From assembly GCF_000317535.1 (NCBI RefSeq), contig NC_019757.1:5855501-5919500 (forward strand): DNA of 64,000 nt, given 5' to 3'. The position numbers and the translations under genes are program-made. The notes under the pieces are model-generated. The model had not been told where the DNA came from and searched no databases. It saw only the letters and a list, made by a program, of their open reading frames with translations. This stretch comes from Cylindrospermum stagnale PCC 7417. GTDB lineage: Bacteria; Cyanobacteriota; Cyanobacteriia; Cyanobacteriales; Nostocaceae. Shown here piece by piece: positions 1 through 31,680 of the stretch (the first letter of the stretch is position 1; every line of letters begins with the position of its first letter).

Positions 1-3000
1 TAGCCAGTACCCGCCGGAATCAACCGCCCAATAATCACGTTTTCTTTTAACCCCCGCAGCCAGTCAGATTTACCTTCAATGGCGGCTTCAGTTAGCACCC
101 TGGTGGTTTCTTGGAACGATGCAGCAGATATAAAGCTGTCGGTGTTGAGCGATGCCTTGGTGATACCCAGCAACACGGGGGTATATTGGGCCCTCGCACC
201 GCCGGTAATCGCCATCGCTTCGTTCACTTGCTCAACTTGGCGCAATTCCACCAACTCCCCAGGCAGCATGGTGGTGTCACCACCATCATCAATCCGCACC
301 TTGTTGGTCATCTGGCGAACAATTACTTCAATGTGCTTGTCAGAAATATCAATGCCTTGAGACTGATAAACCATCTGCACTTCGTTCACCAAAAAGGTCT
401 GCACTTTTTGCAGGGCATGGCTGGCACAGGCATAGATTCCATCCTCAGAACCCAGGCTAAAGAAGATTTCCAAAATTTCGTGGGGGTTAGAGGGGCCATC
501 ACTCAGGGGTTGTCCGGCTAAGATATGGGCACCATCGGGCACCATTAAGTTTTGTCCAGGTCCAAGGGGATAATCGGTGACTACTCCATTAGATTCTATA
601 ACCTTAATGGCGATCGCTTCATCGCCATCACCATAAACCGTTTTCAGTTCTCCAGCCCGACGAGCCAAAATACAGGCTTCTTTCGGTTTCCGGGCTTCTA
701 GCAGTTCTTCAATTCGGGGCAAACCTTGAATAATGTCTCCAGTTTTCGCCCGTTCAAACACCAACAGCACCAAGTTATCGCCCCGTTGCACCAAGTCTCC
801 ATCTTCTATTTGCAACACAGCCCCAGGGCTGACTCGATAAGGGCGACCAACCCGCAGAGTCACAGTGTAAGGAGAAGAGCTAGAGGCTAAAGTTCCATCA
901 TCAGCGCCTGTTGACTCGGAGGTCTGCAAGATTGCCTTTTTCACTTCCACCACCTGCCCAGACTCTGGTGCAAACACCCCAGGGGCAATTTCTGCACTTT
1001 CTACCAGCAAGTCACCCTTCTTCACCTTCGGTTGGCCTTGGGTGGGGATAGAAATCATGTCGCTGTGACGCAGCACCAAACAGCGGCGGACGTTTTCAGC
1101 AGCTCGATTCACACCCCTAACAATACCCCCCTCTTTACACAAGATTTGCGTCCGCGCTACCACTGAGCCAGGGGCAATGGTCAGCCCGTCTTCTACTTCT
1201 AGAGTTGTTTGGGTGCTACCTTGAGTGGCGTCGGCTGAGATGTCGCGACGAATGACTAAAGATTCTAAAATCACCAACTGCAAACGCTGCACTTGGTCAT
1301 CTTCGGTGTCGGGTACTAATTCAATATCCGCAGCCAGAGGTGAGGCGTTGTGGTCTTGTTCCCCCTCTTGCTCAATTTCTAACACCAGTTGAGTCCGCAG
1401 CAGTTCCACCGATTCCACAGACTTGACTCGCTCAGAGTCTTTGTAAGGCAACCGTTGCACTGCCCGCAACTGAATAGAACGCCCGGTTTGTTGACTAATT
1501 GAGGTAGTGGAAGGCACATCTGGGTTGCTGGGTACGGCAAACTCCACAACTGGACGACTTAACAGCGCCGGACCTTCTGGTGACTCTATATATTGGATAT
1601 AGCGCAACTCTGTAGCCACTGACCCCTGAAATTCTTCACCGGGTTGAATAAAGGTGCCATCTTGCCCCATCACTGCTTCTGGGTCATCTACCATCAGCAG
1701 TACACCTGGCTTAATCACCACTTCTCGCAAAATGTCGTTTTTCTGGGTGACTTCTACCACGCCGCTGGTTTGGCAGAAAATATCTTTGACAACTTCAGTG
1801 CCGGCTTCTACAAACTGCCCATCTTCTACCAACAGCAAAGAGATATCTTTGTTGACTTCGTGGGTTTCTTCAGGAATCCACAACAAAGTACCGCCCTGGA
1901 CTACTTCATAGCCTAGCTTGGCTTTGCCTTTTTTCTGGACTTCCACCCCAGCAAATTTCAAAAAGCCGCCGGTGGTGGTGCGGTAGCGGTCGTCAATTAA
2001 CTCAGCAACTACTTGCCCATTTTGCACTTTTGTGCCTGGGGTGGCTCTGAGGTTAAATACCTGATTATTCCCTGTGGAAACTAAATAATTATTCCGACCT
2101 TGAGAGCTTTGGACTGTGACTGAGGCTTTGTCTAAAACTACAGAGGCGGTGATAATTTCAATTTCGCGCGTGCTCTTGCCGGGGGTCGCTTCTGGCAACC
2201 GCACTACACCACCGTGGACTGTGGTTAATTTGGTTTCTGCTAACACGCCATTGAAGACTATCGCATCTCCATTGTGCACTACCAACTCAGCCCCTGGTGG
2301 CAAGTTATAAACTTCCCCAGAGAGAATCCAAATCAAACCCCCCCTAGCGGCAGTGATGGTGGTGTTGCCTTGGCGGTCGGTTTTTTGTTCTGGCACCACT
2401 TCGGCAAACTGCACTTCTCCCGCCAAGTCGGTGGCTACATCCTTCACCGCCTTCTCTGTATTAGCGCGGGTGGTACGTCCCCCCAGAGCCACCTCTGCCA
2501 GCAACTGACCGATTTTTACCTGCTGCCCATCTACTATATAAAGTGTAGAACCTTGGGTCACATGAATTTCTTGGTTGGCTGGGGTCTCACCGCCTTCTTT
2601 TTTCGGCTCCAACACAATCACGCCGTTGGCTTCTACATACATGGCGTCTTCACCATGACGGGTGCGGTAAGGACGAGTCCGCAATTTGCGCGGCAGACGA
2701 ATTGTGCCATCGGTTTTCGAGCGTACCTGCTGGGCGACTTCCCCGGTGAACACACCCCCGGTGTGGAATGTCCGCATCGTTAGCTGGGTACCAGGTTCAC
2801 CGATACTTTGGGCGGCAATAATCCCCACTGCTTCCCCTAAATCTACCATTTTCGCATGGGCCAAACTCCAGCCATAGCAGTGTTGGCACACAGAACGAGC
2901 AGCTTCGCAGGTGAGGGGGCTGCGAACTACAACTTCTACTACATTAGATTTGTGAATTTTGATCGCCAATTCATCAGAAATCGGCGTATTTCGGGTAGCA

Positions 3001-3782
3001 ATAATTTCCTTGGTGGTGGGGTGTAGCACATCTTCTGCCAATACCCTGCCCATCAACCGATTTCCCAAGGGAATCAACACCTTAGCCCCCTCGGTCATTG
3101 ACCGCACCGGCACACCCCTAGTGGTGCCGCAGTCAAATTCGCGAATAATCACATCCTGGGAGACATCCACCAACCGCCGGGTGAGATAACCAGAGTCCGC
3201 AGTCCGCAAGGCGGTATCCACCAACCCTTTGCGGGCACCATAAGAAGAAATAATATATTCTGTAACTGTCAACCCTTCCCGAAAGTTGGTTTTAATTGGT
3301 AAGTCAATAATTTCCCCTTGGGGGTCTGCCATCAGTCCCCGCATCCCCACCAACTGCCGCACCTGAGAGATATTACCCCGGGCCCCAGAGAATGCCATCA
3401 TATACACAGAGTTCAGGGGGTTGGTCTTTTTAAAGTAGACCACCACCTCATCTTTCAGCAGTTCCGAAGTTCCATTCCAGGTGTCAATTACCTTTTGGAA
3501 CCGTTCCACTTCAGTAATTTCTCCCCGCTGATAACGAGTCTCTGTAGCGCGAATTTCTTCTTCGGCTGCTTCCAACAATCGGCGCTTGGTGGGCGGCACC
3601 ATCAAGTCATCTACACTGATAGAAACCCCGGCTTTGGTGGCATAGCGAAAGCCCAGGTCCTTCAACTTATCCGCCATCACCGCTGTGCGTGCAGTCCCGT
3701 AATGGGTAAACGCCCAGGAAATTAAATTTCTCAGTTGACCCTTGTCAACCACACGATTGCGAAAAATCATTTTTTCTGTCAT
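1..3782 (-). CDS. rpoC2: RNA polymerase subunit beta-prime' (RpoC2), partial
   Basis: Encodes the C-terminal half of the split cyanobacterial beta-prime subunit of RNA polymerase, which acts with RpoA, RpoB and RpoC1 in transcription. The frame is open from ATG at 3782 ([16 protein letters not shown]) to the left edge, about 1260 codons. The last visible block, [16 protein letters not shown], is a conserved near-C-terminal motif of RpoC2, so roughly the last 100 residues lie outside the window. I checked that the frame at position 38 is the same as at the start codon, so no net frameshift is present. It follows rpoC1 after a 253-bp repeat-filled gap and is presumably in the same operon. Confidence 0.96.
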
Positions 3783-4035: not shown

Positions 4036-5913
4036 CTAACTTGCAAGTGCTTCTTGAATCGCTTTGTTGTAAATCACTCGACCAGGGGTCGTGCGGATAT
4101 ACTGAGAAAGTAAATTTCCTTTGGCGTCTTGACGGACACGGCGGAATTTATAAAGCAAAGTCCGGCTACCATCAGAGTTTTCAGTCACCTCTACAGGTTC
4201 TGTGTCTGGTTGGTCTGTCTCCATTTCGCCATCAAAGCGGACATATATATAGGCGTGGAGGTCTACTTGCTCCTGCTGGTATGCCATAATCACATCATCC
4301 AGGGAGAAATAATATCCGCCCGCGCCTTTGGTCGCACCGGGATTTTCCGCCGTTAGATAATACGCCCCCAAAACCATGTCTTGGCTGGGAGTAATAATCG
4401 GTTTACCTGTGGCAGGGGAGAGGATATTGTTAGAAGCCAGCATCAACAGCCTGGCCTCTGCCTGACTCTCTAACGACAGGGGCACATGCACCGCCATTTG
4501 GTCGCCATCAAAGTCGGCGTTAAAAGCCGGACAAACTAGGGGATGAAGTTGAATCGCTCTCCCCTCAACTAAAATCGGTTCAAAAGACTGAATGCCTAAG
4601 CGGTGCAGAGTCGGGGCGCGGTTGAGTAATACTGGATGCCCCTCAATCACTTCTTCCAACACATCCCACACGCTGGGGTCATTGCGCGATATCAGCTTTT
4701 TAGCCGCCTTGATGTTGTTCACCATGCCGCTTCTAATTAGGCGGTTGATGACAAAAGGTTGAAATAGCTCAATTGCCATCTCTCTCGGCAACCCGCACTG
4801 GTGAATCTTCAGCTTTGGACCCACGACAATTACCGAACGTCCCGAATAGTCCACCCGTTTACCCAACAGGTTTTGCCGGAACCGTCCTTGCTTACCTTCA
4901 ATAATGTCTGAGAGCGACTTCAGCGGGCGGTTATTAGCCCCCACCACAGTCCGACCCCGGCGACCGTTGTCAATTAAGGCATCAACCGCTTCTTGCAGCA
5001 TCCGCTTCTCGTTGCGGACGATGATTTCTGGTGCCAAAATTTCTTGTAGTCTTGCCAAGCGGTTGTTGCGGTTAATTACCCGGCGATATAAATCATTTAA
5101 GTCGCTGGTGGCAAACCGACCGCCATCTAGCTGCACCATTGGGCGCAAATCGGGGGGAATCACGGGGATAACTGCCATCACCATCCATTCTGGTTTGGAG
5201 CCGGTGGCAATGAAGTTGTCAATCACTCGTAGTCGCTTAATTAGCTTCGCCCGTTTTTGTCCCTTGGCGTTGCCAATTTCTTCTCGCAGGCTCTCTGCCT
5301 CTTGCTCTAGATTAATATCTGCCAGCAACCGCAGCAGGGCCTCCGCCCCAATGCCCACTTCCACACCCACCAAGAGTGAGTCTTCGCTATAAATTTGGTC
5401 TTCAATTTCTAGCCACTGGTCTTCGCTCAGTAACTGCTTGTAGCTAAGAGTCTCGGCATTGCCCGGGCCGAGAACTACATAAGAGTTGAAATAGACAATT
5501 TGCTCCACATCCCGCAGGGGCATATCGAGCAAAATCGCAATGTAGCTAGGGATGCCCTTGAGATACCACACATGGGCCACTGGCGCAGCGAGCTTAATAA
5601 AGCCCATGCGGTGACGCCGCACCCGTGACTCGGTGACTTCCACACCGCAGCGCTCGCAGACTATGCCACGGTGGCGCACCCGTTTGTATTTGCCGCAGTG
5701 GCATTCCCAATCTTTTGCTGGTCCAAAGATTCTCTCGCAGAACAAGCCATCCATCTCTGGCTTCAGGGTGCGGTAGTTTATCGTCTCTGGCTTGGTCACC
5801 TCACCAACTACCTGACCATTAGGCAAAGTACGCTCGCCCCACTGGCGGATGCGTTCAGGGGAAGCTAAACCGATTTTGACGTAGTCAAACTGATTAGTTT
5901 GGGCGTGTCTCAT
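4036..5913 (-). CDS. rpoC1: RNA polymerase subunit gamma (RpoC1)
   Basis: N-terminal half of the split beta-prime subunit, 625 residues, the usual cyanobacterial length. It starts [23 protein letters not shown] zinc-binding region with CHCG and CERC pairs lies near residues 70-90. The catalytic magnesium motif NADFDGDQ is near residue 460, so the active-centre segment is intact. The C-terminus ends in [13 protein letters not shown]. It sits between rpoB and rpoC2 in the conserved order; both gaps are filled with heptamer repeats rather than promoters I could recognise. Confidence 0.98.
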
Positions 5914-5917
5914 AATT

Positions 5918-6113
5918 ATTAGTCATTAGTCATTAGTCATTAGTCATTGGTCATTGGTCAAAAAGTCATTAGTCATTGGTCAAAAAGTCATTAGTCGTCA
6001 GGTAGAAGTTTTTTTCTATTAGGGGGAACATTTGCTTCCTACTAACAAGCTAGTTTTCGTCTTCATTCATCATTAAATTGCTAATGACTAATGACTAATG
6101 ACTAATGACTAAT
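5918..6113. repeat. Inverted heptamer repeat arrays between rpoB and rpoC1
   Basis: The left arm (5918-5948) is an ATTAGTC heptamer array and the right arm (6083-6113) is its exact reverse complement (GACTAAT units). Together they give a 31-bp perfect stem enclosing about 134 nt. ATTGGTC variants follow the left arm. In the rpo transcript this could fold into a long hairpin between rpoB and rpoC1. The repeats are of the heptamer class common in Nostocales; a function is not shown by the sequence. Confidence 0.9.
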
Positions 6114-6115
6114 TC

Positions 6116-8161
6116 TTACTCGTCTTCTTCCAGTGACTCACGGGAGAGTGATTCGTAGGTGGGTCGCGGCGGTGTGCGCCTAATTGATTGGTCTGCCATC
6201 AAATCGACTTCTACATCTAAAGAACTGCCATCTGCCTGGGTTTCTACCTTGTGGACGGCAATATCTAAGCCTAAAGATTGCAGTTCTCGCATCAACACCT
6301 TAAAGGACTCAGGAGTACCGGGTCGGGGAATTGACTTGCCTTTAACAATGGCATTGAGCGCTTCATTCCGCCCTTGCATATCATCAGACTTCACCGTCAG
6401 TAACTCCTGCAAGGTGTAAGCTGCCCCAAAGGCTTCCAGCGCCCACACTTCCATTTCTCCAAACCGCTGACCGCCTTGCTGGGCCTTACCACCCAAGGGT
6501 TGCTGTGTAACCAGCGAGTAGGGGCCTGTTGACCGGGCGTGGATTTTGTCATCGACTAAATGCACCAGCTTCAGCATATAAGCTACGCCGATGGTGATTG
6601 GTCGGTCAAAGGGTTCGCCGGTGCGACCGTCAAAGACCATAATTTTGCCGGGGTCATCGGGGTTATATACCCAGAGTTTGCTGGTTTCGTCTCTAGCTTC
6701 TTGCAATTTGCCGTGGACAATGCGGCGAGAAGATTCCTCACCATACATTTCGTCAAAGGGTGTAATTTTAAACCGCACGCCTAAGTTATGACCCGCCCAG
6801 CCCAAGAGGCACTCAAACACCTGGCCGACATTCATCCGGCTGGGTACACCCAAGGGATTGAGCACTATATCTACTGGGGAGCCGTCGGGCAAGTAGGGCA
6901 TATCTTCAGCCGGCAAAATTCGCGAGATAATGCCTTTGTTGCCGTGGCGTCCTGCCATTTTGTCGCCAACTTGGATTTTTCTCTTTTGGGCGACATACAC
7001 CCGGACTACCATGTTGGCTCCTGGTGGCAGTTCATCACCTTGTTCGCGGGTAAACAGGCGCACATCGACGACCCTTCCTTTTTCGCCGTTGGGCACTCGC
7101 AGGGAGTTGTCGCGCACATCTCTCGCTTTTTCGCCGAAGATAGCCCGCAGGAGTTTTTCTTCTGGGGGTTGGTCAGATTCACCTTTGGGGGTGACTTTGC
7201 CGACTAAGATATCCCCAGCTTCTACCCAGGCACCAATGCGGATGATGCCCTGTTCGTCTAGTTGTCGCAGGGCATCTTCACCGACGTTGGGAATTTCTCT
7301 AGTGATTTCTTCTGGGCCTAGTTTGGTTTGTCTGGCCTCAATTTCATATTTTTCGATGTGAATTGAGGTGTAGACATCGTCTTGCACTAGGCGCTCAGAA
7401 ATTAAGATGGCGTCTTCGTAGTTGTAGCCTTCCCAAGGCATGTAGGCGACTACGATGTTTTGCCCTAGGGCTAATTCTCCGCCTTCGGTAGAGGAGCCAT
7501 CTGCCAGCACTTGCCCAGCAACTACTCGCTCTCCGGTGCGGACTAGGGGTTTTTGGTTGAGACAGGTGTCTTGGTTAGAGCGCTGATATTTAGAAAGGGT
7601 GTATCTAATTTCTTGAACTTTGTCGGTTGTCTGTGATGCTTTATCAGTTGTTTTGCCACTGGTGATTGACGATTGATTACGGACTCTGACGCGAATTTCG
7701 GCAGCATCGACGTAGGTGACATCGCCGTCGGTGCGGGAGACTATCACCATGCCGGAGTCTCTTGCTCCCTGTGCTTCTAAGCCGGTGCCGACTAAAGGGC
7801 GCTCTGGCTTGAGTAGGGGCACTGCCTGCCGTTGCATGTTAGAACCCATGAGTGCCCGGTTGGCATCGTCATGTTCTAAGAAGGGAATCATGCTAGTAGC
7901 CACAGAGACTATCTGCACTGGAGAAACTGCCACGTAATCCACCTGCTCTGGTGTGGTGGTGGAGAACTCTTGGCGATAGCGCACGGGCACTTGGGGTCCT
8001 ATGATGTAGCCGTTGTCGTCTACTGGCACATCTCCCGGTGCTACCCGCAAATCGTCTTCTTCGTCGGCAGTCATGTAAACCGGTGCGAGGTCAAACCGCA
8101 CGCGGGCGTTTTCTACTGGTCTAAAGGGTGTTTCTAAAAATCCATAGAGGTTAACGCGGGT
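6116..8161 (-). CDS. rpoB: RNA polymerase subunit beta (RpoB), C-terminal part only
   Basis: The frame encodes about 680 residues of RpoB, from [20 protein letters not shown] to the C-terminus [11 protein letters not shown], including the conserved [11 protein letters not shown] active-site region. Cyanobacterial RpoB is normally about 1100 or more residues, so the N-terminal portion (lobes, rifampicin pocket, fork loop) is absent. Homology stops at about 8160: the codon before TRVNLYGF is an in-frame TGA (8162-8164) and the DNA beyond encodes unrelated plasmid-type genes. No ATG start precedes the fragment; the first possible internal start is GTG at 8101, without a clear ribosome-binding site. 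It could be a gene split by an inserted element, a genuinely split subunit, or an assembly join. Confidence 0.93.
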
Positions 8162-8195
8162 TCAACAAGCTGATGTGCGAACTTTGAACACTAAA

Positions 8196-8381
8196 TTACT
8201 CAAGTTCTGCCAGTGCTTTAGCGATCGCTTCCCTAATAAAGTCATTTTTATTAGGCAATTCTTTTAATTTGGACATCATACTTTGCTTAATCCACAAAGC
8301 CAGCTTGACGTTATTAGGCTCTTCATCACCACTCTGAAATTGAAATTTAGCTAGATCTGGGTTTCCCCCTGGTCTGGACAT
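8196..8381 (-). CDS. Small ribbon-helix-helix-like protein
   Basis: A 61-residue basic protein starting MSRPGGNPDLAKFQFQS. I chose ATG 8381 rather than the upstream start at 8408 because GGAG sequences lie about 7-15 nt before it. The second half (NVKLALWIKQSMMSKLKELPNKNDFIREAIAKALAELE) has the strand-helix-helix pattern of small MetJ/Arc or CopG-like DNA-binding proteins common on cyanobacterial plasmids. That family assignment is inferred from pattern only. It is the first gene beyond the rpoB break and points toward it; it might be an autoregulator or copy-control protein. Confidence 0.65.
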   Translation of the reverse strand: MSRPGGNPDLAKFQFQSGDEEPNNVKLALWIKQSMMSKLKELPNKNDFIREAIAKALAELE

Positions 8382-8454
8382 CTTCTCATCTCCTACTCCT
8401 ACCGCCAATATAGCACGGGGTCTAGCTAATCAATTGTAACGAAGTGTGATAATA

Positions 8455-8485
8455 TTGCTTGTATTGCGTGGGGTCGCGCTATAAT
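8455..8485 (+). promoter_or_regulatory. Candidate sigma-70-type promoter for the 8600 gene
   Basis: A perfect TATAAT lies at 8480-8485. TTGCTT at 8455-8460 is a plausible -35 with a long 19-bp spacer. It faces the 8600-8857 gene and leaves a leader of about 110 nt. The spacing is not ideal, so the -35 assignment is weak. Confidence 0.4.
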
Positions 8486-8520
8486 AGAAGGGTAAACCGA
8501 ACAGGAGCTTCCCTCCCTTC

Positions 8521-8583
8521 ATTTCCCCTAAGAATAACCCCTATTAGGGATGCACCGTTTTAACTAAATGCCTCTTGGTGCAT
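8521..8583 (+). promoter_or_regulatory. Structured leader upstream of the 8600 gene
   Basis: The leader contains the repeated motif ATTTCCCCTAAGAAT (8521-8535), a small palindrome CCCTATTAGGG (8539-8549), and a 7-bp inverted repeat ATGCACC (8550-8556) / GGTGCAT (8577-8583) about 16 nt before the start codon. The last could form a hairpin that affects ribosome access. I recognise no known riboswitch class. Confidence 0.35.
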
Positions 8584-8599
8584 AGGCGCAACAGGGAAA

Positions 8600-8857
8600 A
8601 TGGATAAAAAGATCACTGAAAAGTTTGTAAATGATATGGGAAAAGAAATGACTGCTAGCATTTCAATCTCAGACCCCGAAGAAGGAAATGATGTAAAAGT
8701 TACTGTTCGTATGGATGAAGGACAATTTAATAAAGATCATTACAGCGGATACTGCACAGATTTTCAGTACAGTGCAGAGTCATCTGATCCTAATGACTGG
8801 GAAAATGAAGCTATAGAAGCAGCTAAGAGAGCCGGCGACGGGTGGTATTTGGAATAA
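8600..8857 (+). CDS. Small acidic hypothetical protein
   Basis: An 85-residue soluble, acidic protein (MDKKITEKFVNDMGKEMTAS...) with no membrane segment or recognised domain. ATG 8600 is preceded by a GGGA-type ribosome-binding sequence. It ends with a short Ala/Gly segment and WYLE. A candidate promoter and structured leader precede it. I do not recognise a family; it is kept as a gene because of its start context and codon pattern. Confidence 0.6.
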   Translation: MDKKITEKFVNDMGKEMTASISISDPEEGNDVKVTVRMDEGQFNKDHYSGYCTDFQYSAESSDPNDWENEAIEAAKRAGDGWYLE

Positions 8858-9159
8858 GATTTTGATTTTTAGCGATCGCTCATCACAGGCGATCGCTTCA
8901 CTGGGCTTTGTACTAGGAAAAGGGTGCCTTCTCCAATTTTTCCACCTTTTCTGCGATCGCTTCTCTGAGTACAGCAGGCGAAATTCTCCCCCCCCGCAGA
9001 CATCTACCAAGCGATCGCATTAGTGGACTGGCAACTAATCTAGGTATTACTAGAGAAATTTTAGAAAATTTCGCACAAACAAACGAAAAATAGGGTTTTT
9101 TGTTAACCCTGGCTTTTTTACTAATTAATCGGGGAGGCATCCGACCAAAGAGTATAAAG
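8858..9159. repeat. Gap with a HIP1 cluster
   Basis: No gene is supported here. Four copies of the palindromic octamer GCGATCGC occur within about 150 bp (8872, 8889, 8953, 9011). HIP1 is strongly over-represented in many cyanobacterial genomes, and the cluster is consistent with that background. Confidence 0.8.
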
Positions 9160-9606
9160 ATGAAAAGAGACTTTGCGGACTTTTGGAGCATCAACCACTG
9201 GCTGTGCCAATACAGATTTTTTATTGAGGATGATAATAGCACGTGGATTGACGAAGAAATTATTGTGACTCCTACAAGCGATACCCCATACCACGTAACT
9301 GATTATCTCAAATACAAAACTGTAGAAAAAGCTAATAAATATCTGAGAGTGCTAGACGAAAATACATTTACTGTATGTACTTTTGAGCAAAAGCTACAAG
9401 GAAGGAGAACAATCCCAGCAATGGAGATTGTAGTTTTTCCATGCCCGGATAAAAGCTGGTACGCTGGCTATCCAGCCCTAAACCCGCAGCACTACGTTAG
9501 GGTTTGTGATTTCTACTCTGGGGATAAAGACTGGTTAGAAAATGGTCAGTACGATCTAGCCTTTGCTAGTAGGCGTATATGGTCATCAGTACTAAGAGAG
9601 TCCTAG
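9160..9606 (+). CDS. Hypothetical protein
   Basis: A 148-residue soluble protein starting MKRDFADFWSINHWLCQYRFF. I prefer ATG 9160 over the TTG at 9100, whose extra 20 residues look like untranslated leader. It is rich in Trp and Tyr and has no signal peptide or recognised motif. It stands alone between two gene-poor stretches. Function unknown. Confidence 0.6.
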   Translation: MKRDFADFWSINHWLCQYRFFIEDDNSTWIDEEIIVTPTSDTPYHVTDYLKYKTVEKANKYLRVLDENTFTVCTFEQKLQGRRTIPAMEIVVFPCPDKSWYAGYPALNPQHYVRVCDFYSGDKDWLENGQYDLAFASRRIWSSVLRES

Positions 9607-10027
9607 TTTCTAGATGTAAAAAGGTACGTGAACACGCTTGAAAAAAGTGGTGAGCGACTGCCCCCCTTGGGGTAGTTTTTGCACTCCTTTGTCTATTTTA
9701 ACATTTTCACAACATGGTTTTGATGTACGCTCGGAGGTTTGGAGAATGATGTCTGAATCATGTTCTGGGTTAAAACTATCAAATTTTAGTATTTTAATGT
9801 GTCTTGATTCAGACTTATATTCAGAGCTTTCTGCCGCTGCTGGTTTTTGTTTCTGGCTCTAAAGATGTGATTTTGAAATCATACTTATAAACACATTTTC
9901 ACAGAATATTCCACCCCCAACCGACACCTTCGTCTATACAATTAGCTTCTTCTTGCAACAAACTCATCGAGTAAAGGTAAAATAACTAAGAGGCGAACGA
10001 AAATCTACTAAATCTTCTATCTTCAGC
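9607..10027. other. Gene-poor stretch
   Basis: About 420 bp without a convincing gene. A TTG-started frame at 9638-9862 has no ribosome-binding site and an unlikely Ser/Cys-rich composition, so I left it out. I see no clear repeat or RNA. Confidence 0.5.
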
Positions 10028-10855
10028 ATGAAAGAGTTTAAATGGTGGGGGTCGGAAAACGAACCTCCCAGCTATTTAAAAACTAAAAAACAACTATCAG
10101 ATATGGGGTTGTCTCCTATCAATCCCGTCGGCTTTATTAATACAAAAAAATACACCTTATACCTTTATGATCCAAACGATATTAATTCTGTGCGACCTAA
10201 ACGCAAACCATCTGAGAAACAGTTAAACAATCTTAAAAAAGGTAGGGCAGCCCAAAAGCTCCAAAGCTGGCGCAAGCACAGCGGCTTTATTGAAGAAGAC
10301 AGAGCAGAAGTTGTCGCATGGGCGCTAGAACTAACCAGCCATGACAACTGGGTAATTCTTGACACTGAAACCACAGGACTAGAAAGCGATGCTGAAGCAA
10401 TAGAGATAGCAGTAATAAACCACTGTGGCGATACATTAGTTAATACCCTGGTAAAATCCACAGTTGCTATTACCAAAGAAGCAACTGAGGTACACGGGAT
10501 CACCAATGAAATGCTTGCCACTGCCCCATCGTTTCCAGACATTTATCCCACGTTAAAAGAAGCGATCGCAAACAAACGAGTTTTAGTATACAATGCAGAC
10601 TTCGATATTAAGGTTCTCGACCACTGCTGTAGCTTGCACCAATTGCAAAAACTAAAAATCAGAGAGCCAATCTGCTTGATGAACTGGTACTCTAAGTGGT
10701 GCGGCGAATACAGCACCTACTGGGAGGACTATAAATACCAGCCCTTACCACACGCAGATCATAGGGCGGTAAATGACTGTGTGGCAGCCTTAAAACTTCT
10801 AAAAGAGATAGCATCTGATAATCCAAACCCGCAGTACCCGGATTTTATGCAGTAG
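10028..10855 (+). CDS. DEDDh-family 3'-5' exonuclease (DnaQ-like)
   Basis: A 275-residue protein. Residues about 108-262 form a DnaQ/epsilon-type exonuclease fold. Exo I is DTETTG at 112-117, Exo II is YNADFD at about 188-193, and Exo III is HADHRAVND, with His245 and Asp250 as the catalytic pair. These acidic residues bind the two metal ions that cleave 3' nucleotides. The first 105 residues are an extension of unknown role (FKWWGSENEPPSYLKTKKQL...) followed by a basic segment. It may proofread or process DNA or RNA on this element. It stands alone, downstream of a 420-bp gap and tail to tail with the decayed thermonuclease. Confidence 0.88.
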   Translation: MKEFKWWGSENEPPSYLKTKKQLSDMGLSPINPVGFINTKKYTLYLYDPNDINSVRPKRKPSEKQLNNLKKGRAAQKLQSWRKHSGFIEEDRAEVVAWALELTSHDNWVILDTETTGLESDAEAIEIAVINHCGDTLVNTLVKSTVAITKEATEVHGITNEMLATAPSFPDIYPTLKEAIANKRVLVYNADFDIKVLDHCCSLHQLQKLKIREPICLMNWYSKWCGEYSTYWEDYKYQPLPHADHRAVNDCVAALKLLKEIASDNPNPQYPDFMQ

Positions 10856-10859
10856 CCCA

Positions 10860-11516
10860 TTACTTGCGCCTCACTGACGAGCGATAATCCCAAGGCTTCT
10901 GGTAATCCCCTGACCATACACCGAGTTTTTTGTCCTTTGCGTTGGCGCAGTCTACCGCAGGTAATCGCTTCCCCGTTCTCAATAGCTGTTTTATTGGGAC
11001 AATTAAGAGAATACCGAGCGTAGTGGTAAGCCATACCACTGCTGGCCATCTCTTCATTAATGAATTTCTCGCCACCAGGGACAATTACAAATATCTCACC
11101 AATTGCCCTGTTGTATTTATCCCTGCCAACAATTGATAGTTGGATTTTCTTAGTGGAAAGAAGCGATGTACCATCCCCTAAGAGTGATTACCTACGGTAC
11201 ACTCCGTGAACGCAACTTATCCCGCGACTCAATACCAAAGCGGCTGTGATAACTCTGGTGCGTCTATGCCGCAAAGCCTAATCTTTTCCACCTGACCGCT
11301 TTTTTGCGCCTTAACAGTATCGCCATCATGTACACTCAAAACCTGCCATTCTTCAGTTATTAGCACAGTTGAACCGGACAAAGTACTCTGTATATTCTGA
11401 GTAATACGGTGATTACAACCGGATAATCCACCGGATACTAATAATAAGATAAGCAGACAATCTTTTAAAGAATTTATGTTAAATAAAGCCTTTACATTTA
11501 CCCAATTAAACATCAT
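10860..11516 (-). pseudogene. Thermonuclease-like lipoprotein gene, disrupted
   Basis: A staphylococcal-nuclease-type gene broken into three frames. The N-terminus has a lipoprotein-like signal (LLILLLVSGGLSGC) and VHDGDTVKA...RLCGIDAPELSQPL. A single extra T near 11232 then shifts the frame; without it the reading continues GIESRDKLRS. Around 11140-11200 about 60 bp of unrelated palindromic repeat DNA introduces stops. The frame resumes GRDKYNRAIGEIF...MASSGMAYHYARYSLNCPNKTAIENGEAI, is broken again near 10945-10965 by a similar repeat, and ends LGVWSGDYQKPWDYR. Active-site residues survive, but no continuous protein can be made. Confidence 0.85.
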
Positions 11517-11545
11517 AATAACTTCCAAACTGCTCAAGGATAGAG

Positions 11546-12175
11546 ATGAAAAAGATTATTGCATTATTGGGAATAGTTGGGGGAGCGATCGCGCTTTCAG
11601 CACCAGTGATGGCTCTCCCTTACGGGACAAACACGGTCTACAAAACTGTCAGCGATAGCAATGTAACAACTGTGTACATCTCCGCCGCAGCAAATAGTCG
11701 TGTGCAAGTAGACATGGGTAGTGCTGATCGATCTACTGCGAGAATCGTCGGCGCTTGCGGTGAGCTAAGAATTTCAATACCTTCTAGCGGCTCATTCGAG
11801 GGGTTAAAGGTAGATGGTACAGCAATTGATGCATCTACATTACCAACTCAAATATTGCCAGCCTGCAACGGTGGTACTTTTGTAGAGCCGCGCTCTGCCA
11901 ACTTTAAAACCCCCAATGGACAAGTGGTAATTGTTGGCAAGAATCCCAACAGTGCAGTCGCCATTACCTTACCAACTGAAACAACAAGAAACGTATCAAT
12001 TAATGGCTGTGGTTTCGGTATTCTTCGCGCTGCAAGCGGCTCATCACTGCCAAGTACCTTTGAGATTGGCACAAACTCCTATACTTTGGCGACTCTACCA
12101 GATGCGGGTGAGCCACCAGTTTGCCGAACAACTAACGGTGTAAGTACTGGCTATGTACCGTCAGGTTGGCCTTAA
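11546..12175 (+). CDS. Secreted hypothetical protein
   Basis: A 209-residue protein with a clear signal peptide (MKKIIALLGIVGGAIALSAP, cleavage probably after VMA). The mature part is Ser/Thr/Gly-rich and probably beta-sheet-rich, with four cysteines that could form disulfides (GACGEL, PACNGG, NGCGFG, VCRTTN). The start is supported by AAGGAT upstream. It diverges from the broken thermonuclease across 29 bp and its stop overlaps that of the convergent TolC-like gene by 4 nt. Family not recognised; probably periplasmic or extracellular. Confidence 0.75.
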   Translation: MKKIIALLGIVGGAIALSAPVMALPYGTNTVYKTVSDSNVTTVYISAAANSRVQVDMGSADRSTARIVGACGELRISIPSSGSFEGLKVDGTAIDASTLPTQILPACNGGTFVEPRSANFKTPNGQVVIVGKNPNSAVAITLPTETTRNVSINGCGFGILRAASGSSLPSTFEIGTNSYTLATLPDAGEPPVCRTTNGVSTGYVPSGWP

Positions 12176-13221
12176 TTTTCGGCTTCCTTAACACCCAAGC
12201 ACAGAAGCTTTAAATTAAATATCTCACGCCGCATAGATGCCCAAGCTCGATACCCTTGGGCTTTTTCATTATCTAATTGGTTCTGCTTTAGTAGATAGTC
12301 TTCAGTGGTGGAATTACCCCTGATGTACCTCAATTCGTAAACCTTGAACCGCTGTACGGAACGGGTAAGAACAATTTGTTGAGTTTGATAACCAACCCGC
12401 AGTTCATCAAATTTTGACAAGGACAATGCAACTTCCTTTTTAGTCAGATCGGCAAGGCTGGCTCTGCCTCTCTGTAGTTCAGCGACCTTAATTTGCAGAT
12501 CGCCGATTGCGATCGCGCTCCTCTGAGCATCAGCATTACCACCCTGAGTACCTTGCAAGAAGGGTACACCTACTACATTTAAAAGCCCATTAATAAGCCC
12601 AGTATCACCACGAATAATTTTTAAAACGTTGTCAATCAAGCCATTACCCTGCGATTGCGCTTGCCCCGCTTGGGGAGTAGGGCCCAGAAGGTACTGTAGG
12701 CCAGGCGTGAAAATTGACAGCTGAATGCTCCTCCTATTCCTAGCTTGCGCTTGGGCAATCCTTTCATTAGCCTCACCTATCCGAGCATCCATTTCTTTGA
12801 GCAACGGCGATTGGGCGATCGCTTTTTCTTGCAACTGTGCCAAACAAACAGCAGAGTTTTCCAGGCATGGAAGCCCACCCTTGAGGAGCTTCCATAAATC
12901 ATCATTAAACTCTGACTGGAGAATTTTATCTATATCAGGCAACTTAAACGGATTCGGCTCATTTTTGGGGATAGACTGATCAGCCTCTTGATCAATCTGC
13001 TGCGCCTCCTCAGCATCGCCGCTATCTTCTGGTGTTTGTTCCTCCTCCTCCTGTTGTTGTGGGGGTTTTTGGGATGGTTGGGGAACTTTGGGTAGTGTTA
13101 CTGGCGGCGGAACCTGTGGAGTTTGCGCCGATATTCTTAGTGGAAAAAGAGGCAATGGTGACAGTAGTGCTGTACTTGCCATTGTTACCAACAAAAGGTT
13201 TAACTTTCCTAACAACACCAT
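12172..13221 (-). CDS. TolC-like outer-membrane channel candidate
   Basis: About 349 residues from ATG 13221, which gives a good signal peptide (MVLLGKLNLLLVTMASTALL...ISAQ). Alternative starts are 13263 or 13182. A Pro/Gln/Glu-rich linker follows, then a long helical part with TolC-like patterns (AIAQSPLLKEMDARIGEANERIAQAQARNRRS; later YELRYIRGNSTTEDYLLKQNQLDNEKA). Its N-terminal coding region overlaps the 3' end of the upstream membrane-fusion-like gene by about 200 nt in another frame. The pairing suggests an envelope export or transfer channel. The family call is inferred from heptad pattern and context. Confidence 0.55.
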   Translation of the reverse strand: MVLLGKLNLLLVTMASTALLSPLPLFPLRISAQTPQVPPPVTLPKVPQPSQKPPQQQEEEEQTPEDSGDAEEAQQIDQEADQSIPKNEPNPFKLPDIDKILQSEFNDDLWKLLKGGLPCLENSAVCLAQLQEKAIAQSPLLKEMDARIGEANERIAQAQARNRRSIQLSIFTPGLQYLLGPTPQAGQAQSQGNGLIDNVLKIIRGDTGLINGLLNVVGVPFLQGTQGGNADAQRSAIAIGDLQIKVAELQRGRASLADLTKKEVALSLSKFDELRVGYQTQQIVLTRSVQRFKVYELRYIRGNSTTEDYLLKQNQLDNEKAQGYRAWASMRREIFNLKLLCLGVKEAEN

Positions 13222-14242
13222 TTCTAGGCGATCGCACTGCGGGAATTTGAGCAATTTTATCATCAATATTGCTCAGGGATATTTCCAATTGTGCTAACTG
13301 ATAGTCTCTTTCTCTCAAAGATTGTTGGTACTGAGCCTGCTGTTTTTCAAATTCTTGCCTGGACCCAATTATAGATTGCTCACGCTTGGCGAATTCCACA
13401 GATGCCTCATACTCCTGCACATGCCGCCTACTTTGAGCTGCCACTAATCGAGAGTTTGCAGACTGTAGCTCTGATTCTGCCAACTGCACATTTATCTGCA
13501 ACTGCTGCAACTCCTGACTCTGGCTAGTAGCAGAAGCATCAAGCTTTGCCCTAGCTCTATCAACCCCTGATTGAGCCTCATCTACACCAGATTGTAACTG
13601 TTTTAATAAAGCCTCCTCATGTTGAATGACAACTGGTTCCATCCCTAAATCTTTCATAGATTGGAGCATTTGACCCTGCTCTTCTAACTTCTGCTGTGCT
13701 GATTGCAGAGCGGAACCAGAGCGCTCAAATTCAGCCCGCTGCTCTGGGTTATCAGTATTAAGTAGCGTCTTGCGGGTTTGTAAAACACTCTTCGCTTGTT
13801 GCAGCTTTAACTCAGCTTGAGCGATCGCCGCTTGCTCCTCACTGAAAATAGCCGGGGGGAGCGATCGCAGTTCTGGGGTAGGTGGCGGTGGTGTGGGTTC
13901 CACTAGGAGCTTGTTTTTAATATTCTCGGTTTGCAGTAATATCCCCCTCTTCTGTCGTTCTAAACGTTCCCTCTCTGTGGAGTTATCAGAGATGATGTCC
14001 CCGGTTCTAATTTCATCGCCCTCCTTCACCTTTAAAAAATTGGGATTGTCAACTGTTATTGACATCTTGAGCGGCCTGTTTTGCTGCACTGGAGAGGTAG
14101 CCAGAGTTTCCGAGTTAACAGCTATTACAGGAGTAGTCACTGTGTTGGCGGTTACTTTACTTTGAAAAGAATTTTTAACAAATGTAAGCCCCAATAAACC
14201 AATGCAAATAAACGTAATTAAATTATTTCTAGATTCTTTCAT
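13022..14242 (-). CDS. HlyD-type membrane fusion (periplasmic adaptor) protein
   Basis: A 406-residue protein with one N-terminal membrane segment (LITFICIGLLGLTFV). It then has the first half of a lipoyl-like domain (MSITVDNPNFLKVKEGDEIRTGDIISDN), a long coiled-coil hairpin (about residues 125-320, Gln/Ala/Glu-rich), and the second lipoyl half (AVRSPRNGVVRKVKPFVGNNGKYSTTVTIA). This order is that of HlyD/MacA adaptors, which bridge an inner-membrane pump and a TolC-like channel. The C-terminal Ser/Thr/Gly/Asn tail is low-complexity and coincides with the overlap with the next gene. No ABC transporter is adjacent. Confidence 0.75.
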   Translation of the reverse strand: MKESRNNLITFICIGLLGLTFVKNSFQSKVTANTVTTPVIAVNSETLATSPVQQNRPLKMSITVDNPNFLKVKEGDEIRTGDIISDNSTERERLERQKRGILLQTENIKNKLLVEPTPPPPTPELRSLPPAIFSEEQAAIAQAELKLQQAKSVLQTRKTLLNTDNPEQRAEFERSGSALQSAQQKLEEQGQMLQSMKDLGMEPVVIQHEEALLKQLQSGVDEAQSGVDRARAKLDASATSQSQELQQLQINVQLAESELQSANSRLVAAQSRRHVQEYEASVEFAKREQSIIGSRQEFEKQQAQYQQSLRERDYQLAQLEISLSNIDDKIAQIPAVRSPRNGVVRKVKPFVGNNGKYSTTVTIASFSTKNIGANSTGSAASNTTQSSPTIPKTPTTTGGGGTNTRR

Positions 14243-14528
14243 AAAAGGGATATACTCATTTTCAAAGGAGGATTTCTTTATAAAACTGAACTGGGTAATT
14301 CTTCATCCTCATTCTCAGACTCTGTTAACTGTTGAGTAATTAGGTTTTTAGCTATAGGGCTTTCTCCTTAGTTCTGGATTTGCCCCAAAAACAAGGAATA
14401 GAGCAATTTAGTAATAATTCTTTATCCTTAGTAGCGTTCATATAGTGGAAACGTAGAATAAGGGATATGTAGACACAAAGAAGCAGAGAATCTGAAAGAT
14501 ACTCTACCTTATTTTACACCAAGATTAA

Positions 14529-15176
14529 TTAAAGCAGTGGTATTTGAGTATAATTTGATTCATTCTTTCCTAAAATCTTGAGGATCTGTTTCCACCGCTT
14601 AGACGAGTAAAAATCTTGAGACTTATACCACTCCATTGGATCATTATCTGATTTGCTTCTGTTGCATTTCCAGCAGCTTAATACAAAATTACCTATACAA
14701 TCTGAACCACCTTTAGAGACTGGGATAAAATGATCAATTTGAAGCTTAATTTTTGACCCACAATAAGCACATTCATTGCAAAATATCTCTTTAGCTTTAA
14801 AAAGCTCATTTTTGGAATAATTTACCGCATGATTATTTGCTTTTCTTGCTCGCCTACGTCTTGATAGATTTGCATTAGTAAGTTTTCCTGCCTGAGACAT
14901 TCTATATTTATCCTGACTTATTTTAACTTTATCAGGATTTTCAGTACGCCATTTTTTAACATTGTCTTTGATAGCATCTTTTTTCTGTTGATAGCGCTTT
15001 TTGTAATATTCGGTTCTGCTTCTTGATTCTTTCCTATGACACTCTACACATGGGCCAGATCGTCTATTGCCAAATGGTTTGTATCTTAAGCTTTTTCCAG
15101 TTTCTTGATATTCATGACCACAATTACAAAGCTTACCTAAGTAAAACTCTTTACCATTGATAAGTATAAATTTCAT
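14529..15176 (-). CDS. HNH endonuclease
   Basis: A 215-residue protein with a C-terminal HNH domain: CAYCGSK, then LQIDHFIPVSKGGSDCIGNFVLSCWKCNRSKSD. The two CxxC pairs bind structural zinc, and the DH pair plus the later Asn are the catalytic signature. The N-terminal part carries another cysteine pattern (CNCGHEY...CVECHRK), possibly a second zinc site, and a basic helical linker. It lies 8 bp after the 122-residue gene and is probably co-transcribed with it. It could be a free-standing homing-type or defence nuclease. Confidence 0.85.
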   Translation of the reverse strand: MKFILINGKEFYLGKLCNCGHEYQETGKSLRYKPFGNRRSGPCVECHRKESRSRTEYYKKRYQQKKDAIKDNVKKWRTENPDKVKISQDKYRMSQAGKLTNANLSRRRRARKANNHAVNYSKNELFKAKEIFCNECAYCGSKIKLQIDHFIPVSKGGSDCIGNFVLSCWKCNRSKSDNDPMEWYKSQDFYSSKRWKQILKILGKNESNYTQIPLL

Positions 15177-15184
15177 TGTTTAAA

Positions 15185-15553
15185 TCACTTAACTATTTGA
15201 AGAATAGCTACTAAGATGGTAAAAGCTTGGTAGTCTTTATCAGTTGGTTGTTGAATTTGAATAAATTCAGAATTTTGAATGTTTAGTGAAAACCCAGTAT
15301 TAATCGAAACGAATGAACCACTAACTAAAATTTCATTCTTGGTGAACTGAGATGGGTTAGCAGTTGAATCACCAGTATTCTGTTTAGAGCCAAAATCAGG
15401 ATAATTAACAGTGATGTTTGACTGATTAAATCCATCTAAAAAGCTTGATAATTCCGCTCTTTCCTGGGCATTAAAGCTTTTGACAGTTTCTTTAACTACT
15501 GCTAGTTTCTGCGCTACTTGTAAATTTTCAAGTGCTGCCAATACTTCTTCCAT
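15185..15553 (-). CDS. Hypothetical protein, partner of the HNH gene
   Basis: A 122-residue protein. The first half is helical (MEEVLAALENLQVAQKLAVVKETVKSF) and the second looks beta-rich (EILVSGSFVSINTGFSLNIQNSEFIQIQQ). No signal peptide and no recognised motif. It precedes the HNH nuclease with an 8-bp gap, so the two form a small operon. A regulatory or immunity role is possible but only from context. Confidence 0.6.
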   Translation of the reverse strand: MEEVLAALENLQVAQKLAVVKETVKSFNAQERAELSSFLDGFNQSNITVNYPDFGSKQNTGDSTANPSQFTKNEILVSGSFVSINTGFSLNIQNSEFIQIQQPTDKDYQAFTILVAILQIVK

Positions 15554-15629
15554 TTGACTTCCCTAAAATGCTTTTGAGATAACTGGACTCTTGATTGATA
15601 AGAGTCCAAATAATCGAATCCGCTTTTAC

Positions 15630-15908
15630 CTACACTGCTATTGCTGTAACAGCCTCAACATCAGTTACCCAAGCCTCGCTCTTTGAGGTGTGGAAAGCTT
15701 GAGAAACCCAAAAGCCATCAAGTCTGCGGTAAAAAGTGCCAAGCAACTGCATACCGCGCCAAACACGGTATAAACTACCAAAGTCTGCATCAATCACTGA
15801 GTCAATTTCAATTTCAGGAAAGATTGGAGAAACAGCAGCCACCTGCTCTTCTAGCTCTGTGAAAAGTTCTAAATGAGCTAGGGTGAATTCGTCTGTTAAA
15901 TGTGTCAT
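15630..15908 (-). CDS. Small hypothetical protein
   Basis: A 92-residue acidic protein (MTHLTDEFTLAHLELFTELEEQVAAV...) with an aromatic-rich middle (SLYRVWRGMQLLGTFYRRLDGFWVSQAFH). No family recognised. It diverges from the XRE regulator gene across a region with inverted repeats, so it may be controlled by that regulator. Confidence 0.6.
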   Translation of the reverse strand: MTHLTDEFTLAHLELFTELEEQVAAVSPIFPEIEIDSVIDADFGSLYRVWRGMQLLGTFYRRLDGFWVSQAFHTSKSEAWVTDVEAVTAIAV

Positions 15909-15932
15909 GATTGGTTTGCCTCTATTTGGGGT

Positions 15933-16037
15933 AGGCGATCACCTCCAGTTGTCCAGACCTAAGTGATCGCCTTATTTATACTTACAACTGTAAACTGTAT
16001 GCAGACACTTGTCAACTGTCTACAGACAAAATACAAT
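15933..16037 (+). promoter_or_regulatory. Divergent regulatory region with operator-like repeats and promoter
   Basis: A 10-bp inverted repeat AGGCGATCAC (15933-15942) / GTGATCGCCT (15963-15972) lies between the divergent genes. Two direct repeats AACTGTATGCAGACA (15993-16007) and AACTGTCTACAGACA (16014-16028) match at 13 of 15 positions. A promoter TTGTCA (16009-16014), 17-bp spacer, TACAAT (16032-16037) leads to the XRE gene, and the second repeat sits in its spacer. That placement suggests autorepression by the XRE protein. Confidence 0.6.
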
Positions 16038-16061
16038 AGAATTAGTTATAAAGGATTGGCT

Positions 16062-16310
16062 ATGAAATTTGTGCAAGTAAAGCGCGTTGTTGAGAAAATT
16101 AAAGACTTTCCAGAACTAGGAGAAAGAATAAGGCAGGCCAGAGAACGTGATGGAAGGCCATTGACGATCATTTGCAAAGAGTGCGGGGTTAGTCGTTCTT
16201 ACTGGTATCAGCTAGAGAATGAAAACCTGTTAGCACCAGCAACAGAAGGAATAATCCGCAAAATAGAAAATTTTTTGGGTGTTGACTTGGGGGTAAATTT
16301 CAATGATTAA
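16062..16310 (+). CDS. XRE-family helix-turn-helix regulator
   Basis: An 82-residue protein from ATG 16062 (AAGGA 6-10 nt upstream); the longer upstream frame runs through the promoter and is not used. The core LGERIRQARERDGRPLTIICKECGVSRSYWYQLENE fits a Cro/C1-type helix-turn-helix. An ideal promoter with repeated operator-like boxes lies directly upstream. Likely a local repressor of itself and perhaps of the divergent 92-residue gene. Confidence 0.8.
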   Translation: MKFVQVKRVVEKIKDFPELGERIRQARERDGRPLTIICKECGVSRSYWYQLENENLLAPATEGIIRKIENFLGVDLGVNFND

Positions 16311-16537
16311 CCCAACAAAGATTGACCCCTTGACTTTGCCTTCTATGGAAATGTCAAAAGTGGGAAGGCGTAGGAGAAAAAGGAGTTAGTGGAGAATGCG
16401 ATTCCTACGGAGCGCTGAGTGCAAGGCATCCCGTCAGGGATACGCTATCGCTTGCAGAAAGTTCCCAATAGAGATTGAGCCACAATAATTAAGGGTAGTG
16501 GGTGAGGGGGCGATCGCATTTTGGACAAATCACGTTG

Positions 16538-21499: not shown

Positions 21500-21778
21500 G
21501 AGTTAATAATTTCAGAACTGTCAATCATAAATCTGTGTTAAATAATATACTAGCAGATTCTAAGAGAAAAGCGTTTTCTAAATTGCAAAAATACTAAATC
21601 AGTTCCTAGAAATAAGGTGTTTTTTTCTCTCAAGGAAAAATATTTAAAAGAAATTACTCAATACTAGCAGTAGGAACCGTAAATCCAATTAGTATTAGCA
21701 CTTAAAGTGTTTTAAGCTCATACTACAAATATTTATAGTTGTACTTAACTGCTTGGGCTTAAAAACCAAGTACTTTCA

Positions 21779-22867
21779 CTACTTCACCCTTTGGTAATAG
21801 GGAACAATTTCAGTTTTTACTCCATCATTATCCATCCGAACTAAAGCTTCTAAAGGCTCTAGCGAAGTTATCAAAGATTCAGAAAATCTAAACCGTTTTT
21901 TAACAGCAGCTACTTCCACATTATCAATTGGTAATAAAATCTTAGTTGATGAGTTAGCTAAAACTTCCCCGGAAATATGGGCGTCGCGTTGACTCGCAAC
22001 AATCAAAGCTAAACCAAACTTCCTCGCTTCACTGGAGATTCTAGCAAGAGTATCTGATGACTTAACTTCCTTGCATTCATCGATTACAACATAACAGCGC
22101 GGGATTTTTCCCTCAATTTCACCTTGTAACTTATGAGAATCTAGCAATTGTTTTAAAAGCGTTTCTGCTGCTATAGCAGACAATCCAGGTACTTTAGCTA
22201 AAGATGATAAGTCAAATCTAACCAGAGGAAAATTGATTGATGGCTGTAGCTTGCTAAAAATACCATACTTGAAAGTAGCAGCTAACTTGAGCAGTAACTT
22301 CTCAGAATCCTTACAACCATCCTCGACACGGTTGTGTAATTCAACTTCTAAATCAGCAAAAGTTGGAGGCTCCTTTGTCCATGTTGACCGCTCTTTCTGA
22401 AATATACCCCTATTTTCATAACAACTTATAAAGGCGTTCAGTGTCAAACCTTGCTGGTTATCGCCCATTTTTAGGGACTTCCTGAGAATCGCCGAAACTG
22501 CGATCGCTTGCAAGTCCGGGCCGCCGCCTTTAGGATCTAAGTCAAGCACCAGGGGGTTAAGTCCGTGGGCTGACTCAGCATCTAATCTGTAGCAAGCCTC
22601 ACCAGGCAAGTTTAAATCGCCGTGAAAGTCACACAGAACGATTTTGATCTCTGGAAACAGTGAGGGCAACTCATAAGCAAGGGATTTTAAAGTTTGCGTC
22701 TTCCCGCTGCCGCTGGTTCCCAAAAGCACGACATGACCGTTTCGGAGTTTGGCGGGATTCCACCAGCACTTTTCCCCTAAGAAAATGCCGGAGTGCGATC
22801 CCTCCCCTTCTCCCCTTTTAGCTTGGTTAGGTTTAAGTGTTGCTTGTGGTAAGGGTCGGTTAGACAC
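21779..22867 (-). CDS. HerA/TraG-like DNA-translocating ATPase
   Basis: A 362-residue P-loop ATPase: Walker A GTSGSGKT at 50-57 and Walker B CYVVIDEC near 260, followed by a sensor-like IVASQRDAHISGEVLANSSTKILLP. This layout matches the HerA/FtsK/VirD4 superfamily of hexameric DNA pumps. No membrane segment is seen, so it may work with the membrane proteins encoded just upstream. It overlaps the YdjM-like gene by 8 nt and is last in a four-gene operon. A role in plasmid transfer or partition is inferred. The repeated motif TTTCCCCTAAGAAAAT (22771-22786) lies inside it, coding IFLGEK. Confidence 0.75.
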   Translation of the reverse strand: MSNRPLPQATLKPNQAKRGEGEGSHSGIFLGEKCWWNPAKLRNGHVVLLGTSGSGKTQTLKSLAYELPSLFPEIKIVLCDFHGDLNLPGEACYRLDAESAHGLNPLVLDLDPKGGGPDLQAIAVSAILRKSLKMGDNQQGLTLNAFISCYENRGIFQKERSTWTKEPPTFADLEVELHNRVEDGCKDSEKLLLKLAATFKYGIFSKLQPSINFPLVRFDLSSLAKVPGLSAIAAETLLKQLLDSHKLQGEIEGKIPRCYVVIDECKEVKSSDTLARISSEARKFGLALIVASQRDAHISGEVLANSSTKILLPIDNVEVAAVKKRFRFSESLITSLEPLEALVRMDNDGVKTEIVPYYQRVK

Positions 22868-24860: not shown

Positions 24861-24874
24861 CGTGCCAAAAAACT

Positions 24875-25501: not shown

Positions 25502-25562
25502 TTTTGCTCTACATACTACACACTCACACCATATTATCTGGTACTACCTACCGGATGGTAGG
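25429..25562. promoter_or_regulatory. Palindromic operator-like sites at the start of the 25501 operon
   Basis: CCAGATTATCTGG occurs at 25429-25441 and 25462-25474. A variant CCATATTATCTGG lies at 25529-25541, and another inverted repeat CCTACC-GGAT-GGTAGG at 25547-25562. They straddle the start codon (25501). Partial CTGGATGATT copies lie between. They look like binding sites for a dimeric regulator, or centromere-like sites. Confidence 0.55.
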
Positions 25563-26629: not shown

Positions 26630-26800
26630 AGTTTCAATCCTTTGCTTTTTTAAGCAATTTTATTTTTACTCTTCCTTAGTTGTTTAATAGGTATGGTTTT
26701 GAGGTTTATGCAGCAAAATGGACTAAAGAGCCGATTTAATTAGATAAATGTGTTTTTGGTAAAAAATTTGAAATAAATTTTTTTTAAAATCTTATAAATA

Positions 26801-31662: not shown

Positions 31663-31680
31663 GTTAAATTTTATACATTG

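Follow-up and report, generated by a model that had tools for sequence, protein, structure and literature searches.

How does an rpoB gene, part of an essential transcription operon, come to be cut in half where plasmid-type DNA begins? The question is raised by a locus in the window, by which we mean the whole stretch of 64,000 nucleotides analyzed here (C2:5855501-5919500). The window belongs to C2, a contig of 7,003,560 bases and one of four in a host genome of 7.61 Mb. Features are located in window numbering, which is carried past 64000 (and below 1) into the neighboring DNA as extended coordinates (Table 1). We refer to the rpo copy within the window as copy B and to a second rpo copy, beyond the window on its right side, as copy A; the rpo genes of both copies are all on the minus strand.

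The anatomy of the contig shows a plasmid-chromosome cointegrate formed through captured rpo arms. That a plasmid of about 72 kb did join the chromosome by way of its rpo pieces, and that the cointegrate exists in cells, is in our estimation fairly probable.

Table 1. Features of the interrupted rpo locus, in window and extended coordinates
Feature	Position	Strand	Description
Copy B rpoC2	1..3782, continuing to about -303 left of the window	-	Whole gene, 1361 aa
Copy B rpoC1	4036..5913	-	Whole gene, 625 aa
Copy B rpoB, 3' part	6116..8160	-	Codon 459 to native C terminus; without 5' part
Native-operon stretch without copy A counterpart	5233..6268	-	rpoC1 5' part, intergenic repeats, rpoB 3' end; copy A has X
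Junction J1	8160..8161	.	rpoB codon 459 / plasmid element E
Plasmid element E	8161..64000 in window, to 71953 (extended)	.	63.8 kb
70-aa ORF, edge of E	8196..8408	-	No family/HMM match
Motif GCRYGGGGTCRYGCTATAATAG	8466..8488	+	About 22 bases
parA	29975-30730	+	In E
parB	30730-31662	+	In E
Rep-like HTH protein	40470..41237	-	20-bp direct repeats at 40870-41009, inside gene
Type I RM genes of E	52949..60261	-	R 52949-56059, S 57276-58649, M 58639-60261
XerC/D-like tyrosine recombinase of E	68203-69159 (extended)	+	Below XerC and XerD cut-offs
Plasmid piece X	77407-78544 (extended)		1,138 bp, between copy A rpoB and rpoC1; two divergent ORFs
Copy A rpoB	78521-81811 (extended)	-	True start, 1096 aa, last seven residues foreign (KTKVVQS)
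rpoB arm	6269..8160 with 78545-80436 (extended)	-	1,892 bp, 98.4%, 30 differences
rpoC arm	-220 to 5232 with 71954-77406 (extended)	-	5,453 bp, 99.7%, 16 differences

Anatomy of the interrupted operon

A sequence-only reading of the window had described rpoB as halved exactly where plasmid-type DNA starts, and the comparison of the two rpoB copies bears this out: their match stops at 8160, within codon 459, and beyond it lies plasmid-type DNA with parAB and a Rep-like gene to the right. What remains of rpoB in copy B, the 3' 60% of the gene, includes an open frame running from 8101 to 6116 on the minus strand, with a GTG start and 661 aa. The same reading had placed an in-frame TGA immediately before the residues RVNLYGF; the TGA is present, but an ACC intervenes and the stop lies one codon farther. 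It had also argued that the missing half of RpoB must be somewhere in the cell, and the N-terminal half is indeed present once in the genome, 72 kb rightward: the host has two rpoB matches and a single RpoB N-terminal domain (PF04563), at C2:5936181-5937140. A group II intron or intein at J1 was considered and dropped, as nothing of the kind was seen by eye at 8161-8200 and a group II intron reverse transcriptase is 19 kb off. J1 itself was absent from the viral contigs searched.

The rpo genes of copy A are also broken. Its rpoC1 begins at codon 230, and its rpoC2 is identical to that of copy B through residue 1334, after which foreign sequence follows. Among the matches listed, and short repeats aside, copy B alone carries the first 229 codons of rpoC1 and the native end of rpoB. 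This search gave 178 genome matches, nearly all of which, among the matches listed, came from TTAGTCATTAGTCA-type repeats. Such repeats lie at 5918-6112, between rpoB and rpoC1, and the genome holds many similar sites.

Direct repeats of shared homology are present at both borders of E. The sequence-only reading had advised looking for a short direct repeat at the junction; instead, 1.9 kb of rpoB and 5.4 kb of rpoC1-rpoC2 are duplicated there. Duplicated edges of this kind speak for homologous recombination rather than for the action of a Xis-type recombinase. Of the earlier proposal of a plasmid-like element inserted in rpoB and excised or tolerated, the element is borne out, and site-specific excision is not supported.

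The pattern of divergence between the arms bears on their history. The rpoB copies differ at 28 codons, 27 of them silently, and RpoC1 and RpoC2 show no residue difference where the copies overlap. With changes so largely silent, the divergence would have arisen mostly while both versions worked as genes, and a related strain is suggested as the donor of the plasmid's rpo pieces. The 46 differences between copies A and B cluster toward the ends of the homologous stretches (mean distance, 530 versus 782 in shuffles; p = 0.0005), and a gap of 3,084 bp without any difference was matched in 0 of 20,000 shuffles. Such clustering would fit gene conversion between coexisting copies; repeat collapse or polishing during assembly might be another source of it. 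The two relatives described below were also used in an attempt to tell native from plasmid alleles, and no consistent match emerged.

A plasmid between the copies

The DNA between the repeats is that of a plasmid, with ParAB, a Rep-like gene containing direct repeats, and gene blocks of pANSO36C (Nostoc cf. commune SO-36, NZ_AP025735.1). ORFs of E match this free circle of 69.9 kb in collinear blocks and share its backbone gene order, the annotations in common including an ATP-binding protein, a metal-dependent hydrolase, DUF87, HlyD, TolC, an HTH protein, and an endonuclease. pANSO36C has no rpo match, and the cargo of E differs from it in type I RM genes, a NACHT protein, and a group II intron reverse transcriptase. 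The parAB genes of E have about 70% DNA identity to Anabaena and Dolichospermum plasmids of 76-85 kb. The NACHT-domain protein, of 1653 aa, is encoded at 16538-21499 and had no PADLOC match at 1e-5, and the reverse transcriptase/maturase, which has an HNH domain, lies inside E at 27399-29105.

The genes to the right of the junction had earlier been described as a small ribbon-helix-helix-like protein followed by parAB and an iteron initiator, with no recombinase visible. ParA, ParB, and a Rep-like HTH ORF with direct repeats were recovered. The 70-aa ORF at the edge of E is without a family match, and we presume it, by eye, to be ribbon-helix-helix-like; SWIM-like and SLOG/YpsA-like are likewise labels that we assigned by eye to small ORFs, with no HMM support above cut-off. 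No recombinase was seen in the window, but a XerC/D-like tyrosine recombinase is encoded just beyond its right edge.

Piece X, which takes the place of the native rpoB-rpoC1 boundary in copy A, is judged to come from the same plasmid as E, because the motif GCRYGGGGTCRYGCTATAATAG has just two matches of two or fewer mismatches in the 7.6-Mb genome, one in E and one in X, and because 32% of X can be aligned with pANSO36C DNA, at 68% identity. Homologues of the second ORF of X were found in pANSO36C (51%) and in two genomes, G021 (47%) and G050 (a 51-residue match). In G050 the match directly adjoins a homologue of the 70-aa ORF, on a 5.3-kb contig (C199) without an rpo match, while in the 72,276-bp circle reconstructed below these two neighbors are separated by the rpoB piece. 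It is likely, from such comparisons, that the plasmid acquired rpo pieces that flank X on either side. A hairpin across the rpoB insertion point in the plasmid was tried as a candidate and rejected, the folded stem lying wholly on the X side.

The plasmid was not found in free form: the first 8 kb of E has a single occurrence in the assembly, within the joined contig. A near-identity search of PLSDB plasmids with positions 1-8160 of the window found none; two chromosomal flanks used as controls (19.9 and 19.0 kb) gave one short match each, in DNA mode, which is uninformative on the rate at which other host genes are captured at the protein level.

Joining through the rpoB arm

We propose that a pANSO36C-type plasmid of about 72 kb would carry two captured, broken pieces of host rpo DNA on either side of X, its own gene pair: codons 459-1089 of rpoB on one side and, on the other, rpoC1 from codon 230 together with rpoC2 to residue 1334. 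The whole plasmid would enter the operon when its rpoB piece underwent homologous recombination with the rpoB of the chromosome. Copy A would then consist of the chromosomal 5' rpoB and the plasmid's broken 3' end, and copy B of the rpoB piece that came with the plasmid, lacking its 5' part, and the chromosomal 3' rpoB-rpoC1-rpoC2. The reverse crossover would return an intact operon and a freed circle.

In silico, a single crossover between the rpoB arms yielded RpoB of 1139 aa, RpoC1 of 625 aa, RpoC2 of 1361 aa, and a circle of 72,276 bp, restoring the uninterrupted operon found in relatives. Were the crossover in the rpoC arm, the product would, as follows from the anatomy, be rpoB-X-truncated rpoC1, with no whole rpoC1; the harmless path is therefore through the rpoB arm.

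Two genomes of the same genus, G001 and G002, each have one unbroken rpoB-rpoC1-rpoC2. The operon of G002 is collinear with the host chromosome on both flanks of the insert, and that of G001 is collinear on the right flank, its left match stopping just past rpoC2. Because the operon of the relatives is uninterrupted and G002 is collinear on both sides, the insert would most simply be a derived state in the host genome.

The state of copy A suggests what else the cells contain. Residue 1070 of its RpoB is Ser, where 69 of 71 matched loci have Pro and 2 have Val (89 loci were scanned, of which 71 fitted the pattern and 18 did not). Copy A also lacks the segment that follows QSL(G/C), whose first residue in the 71 loci is Leu or Met and whose second is Asp, Asn, or Ser, and it lacks the tail common to the cyanobacteria examined. 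Judged by conservation alone, this rpoB end looks decayed, as expected of a drifting plasmid-borne fragment. With the serine present and the segment and tail lost, copy A would serve poorly as the only source of RpoB, so that intact rpo operons are to be expected in the cells and probably exist there. Cyanobacteria are polyploid, and we infer that the cointegrate would occupy some chromosome copies beside intact ones; we also infer the history by which the rpo pieces were captured. Polyploidy is stated for two other cyanobacterial genera in a published account (PMC12417791). The intact operon is not in the assembly, though it is the form that an assembler might be expected to produce from a mixture.

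Alternative explanations

The strongest alternative, rather unlikely but to be taken seriously, is an assembly misjoin, in which the cells have the chromosomal rpoB-rpoC1-rpoC2 intact and, as a second molecule, a 72.3-kb plasmid with the rpo pieces, and paths were swapped in the shared rpoB arm during assembly, so that two circles became one. The same contig would result if these repeats had misled the assembler. The swap requires only the rpoB arm, which includes an identical block of 620 bp; its reversal gives a complete operon and a circle near pANSO36C in size; and the end of copy A rpoB seems decayed (Ser1070, lost C-terminal segment). Set against this are the four contigs, the 7.0-Mb chromosome, and the lack of any N in the 121.9 kb inspected around the locus, which suggest, without proving, the use of long reads, such as would span the 1.9-kb arm, and the differences far from the edges of the rpoC arm (3213-3282 and 3656), which oppose a collapsed repeat. 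The sequence-only reading had held that a second intact rpoB in the genome would mark the locus as an artefact or a duplicate; the second copy comes close, being complete save for its C-terminal end. If the contig is a misjoin, it serves as a warning that plasmid-borne homology can make near-closed genomes show a broken essential operon.

Taken literally, the assembly holds one rpoB N terminus and one whole rpoC1 in a genome 99.99% complete (genome-level completeness), as would be the case if the cointegrate were the sole, working state, with RpoB made from copy A, its C terminus swapped, and RpoC1 and RpoC2 made from copy B, 72 kb apart, under a plasmid promoter. We regard this as improbable, given the serine at position 1070 of copy A and its lack of both the segment after QSL(G/C) and the cyanobacterial tail; moreover, no sigma70-like promoter was found at 7900-8900, in what was a weak test.

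An interruption element of the nifD/fdxN/hupL type, put in rpoB by a site-specific recombinase and excised during development, is highly improbable. The host family is heterocystous and E has a XerC/D-like tyrosine recombinase, but rpoB is required in vegetative cells, and the borders are kilobases of duplicated coding sequence, with a short direct repeat absent. The main text of a survey of heterocyst interruption elements (PMC4874684), where lengths up to 80 kb are recorded, contains neither "rpoB" nor "RNA polymerase". As treated there, such elements likewise place large DNA inside a gene in cyanobacteria of heterocystous family, but E differs from them in having long homologous arms, not short direct repeats, and in interrupting a gene needed in all cells.

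A beta subunit naturally made as two proteins, as in some archaea, had also been suggested and can be set aside almost entirely: copy B has its 661-aa open frame, but copy A covers nearly the whole gene, the relatives examined have one ordinary gene, and a single RpoB match was found in 207 of the 216 matching Nostocaceae genomes (217 searched).

Relation to known systems

Campbell-type cointegrates and prime plasmids (F-prime or R-prime) involve a circular plasmid carrying host DNA that recombines with its chromosomal counterpart, and as at the host locus, direct repeats then stand on both sides of the integrated plasmid. Here, in contrast, the captured DNA comes from the RNA polymerase operon and is present as two pieces with plasmid genes between them, and the operon split by the integration is an essential one. 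Among the matches listed in a literature search of titles and abstract openings, no report of a plasmid joined into a cyanobacterial rpoB was found.

If the cointegrate proposed here is real, a large plasmid has in nature become integrated into a transcription operon that is essential, which cells could tolerate only with coexisting intact copies or with a working, tail-swapped beta subunit. It would then be possible to measure directly, in a polyploid bacterium, how the alleles of such an operon are mixed, and plasmids would be seen to have a way of borrowing host genes as docking sites.

Another Nostocales plasmid with part of an RNA polymerase gene is plasmid2 of Calothrix sp. NIES-4105 (AP018292.1), in which an rpoC2 fragment (residues 161-1214, 78.5%) annotated as beta' subunit lies at 147987-151115 (L142). 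Unlike the pieces described here, it is a fragment of rpoC2. A second Calothrix plasmid record also matched in PLSDB.

Extra rpo copies in other genomes

An RpoB search of 217 Nostocaceae genomes, the host included, matched 216, nine of them more than once. Besides the host, partial extra rpoB copies were found in G031, G095, and perhaps G221 (2-3 of the 216 others), and in a PF00562 scan of 192 genomes, 5 had multiple matches (the host, G031, G088, G095, and G113). Several candidates were discarded. In G130, G093, and G198 the apparent extra rpoB is a single gene split into two adjoining reported pieces, and the second rpoB of G113 (contig C37, 43-69%) and that of G088 (contig C286, 52%) are foreign, probably contamination. 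The possible second copy in G221, of rpoB residues 83-178, is at a contig end (C266:2-311).

In G031, 191 bp of rpoB, 97.4% identical to the genome's own, lie at the end of contig C21 (L126:8689-8879), 3-6 kb from two homologues of the first ORF of X (47% and 39%), and a weaker match to the second ORF of X lies about 19 kb away on that contig. Because just 4 of 60 genomes searched, host included, yielded members of the first ORF's family, the position of this rpoB piece beside X homologues is suggestive. The native rpoB of G031 is broken over contig ends (C36/C39), as a repeat would cause. On a 5.2-kb contig of G095 (C224; L127:3807-5238), part of rpoB, spread over two frames, is fused to pieces of rpoC2, the longer pieces being 95-100% identical to the genome's own operon; compared with E, this contig showed no similarity except in rpo sequence.

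A broader proposal would be that Nostocaceae plasmids of this lineage repeatedly capture host rpoB-rpoC pieces as reversible homology addresses, and that polyploid cells hold a standing mixture of intact and split operons. We consider this doubtful. The notion of recurrent capture is weakened because the G095 contig has only rpo sequence in common with E and because carriers of X-gene homologues, namely, pANSO36C, contig C457 of G021 (20.0 of 24.0 kb), and the G050 contig, are without an rpo match.

At the protein level, the 3' part of rpoB matched no PLSDB plasmid at 80% identity or more, among 66 records with a match. Twelve Clostridioides difficile records that are catalogued as plasmids in PLSDB have rpoB and rpoC matches.
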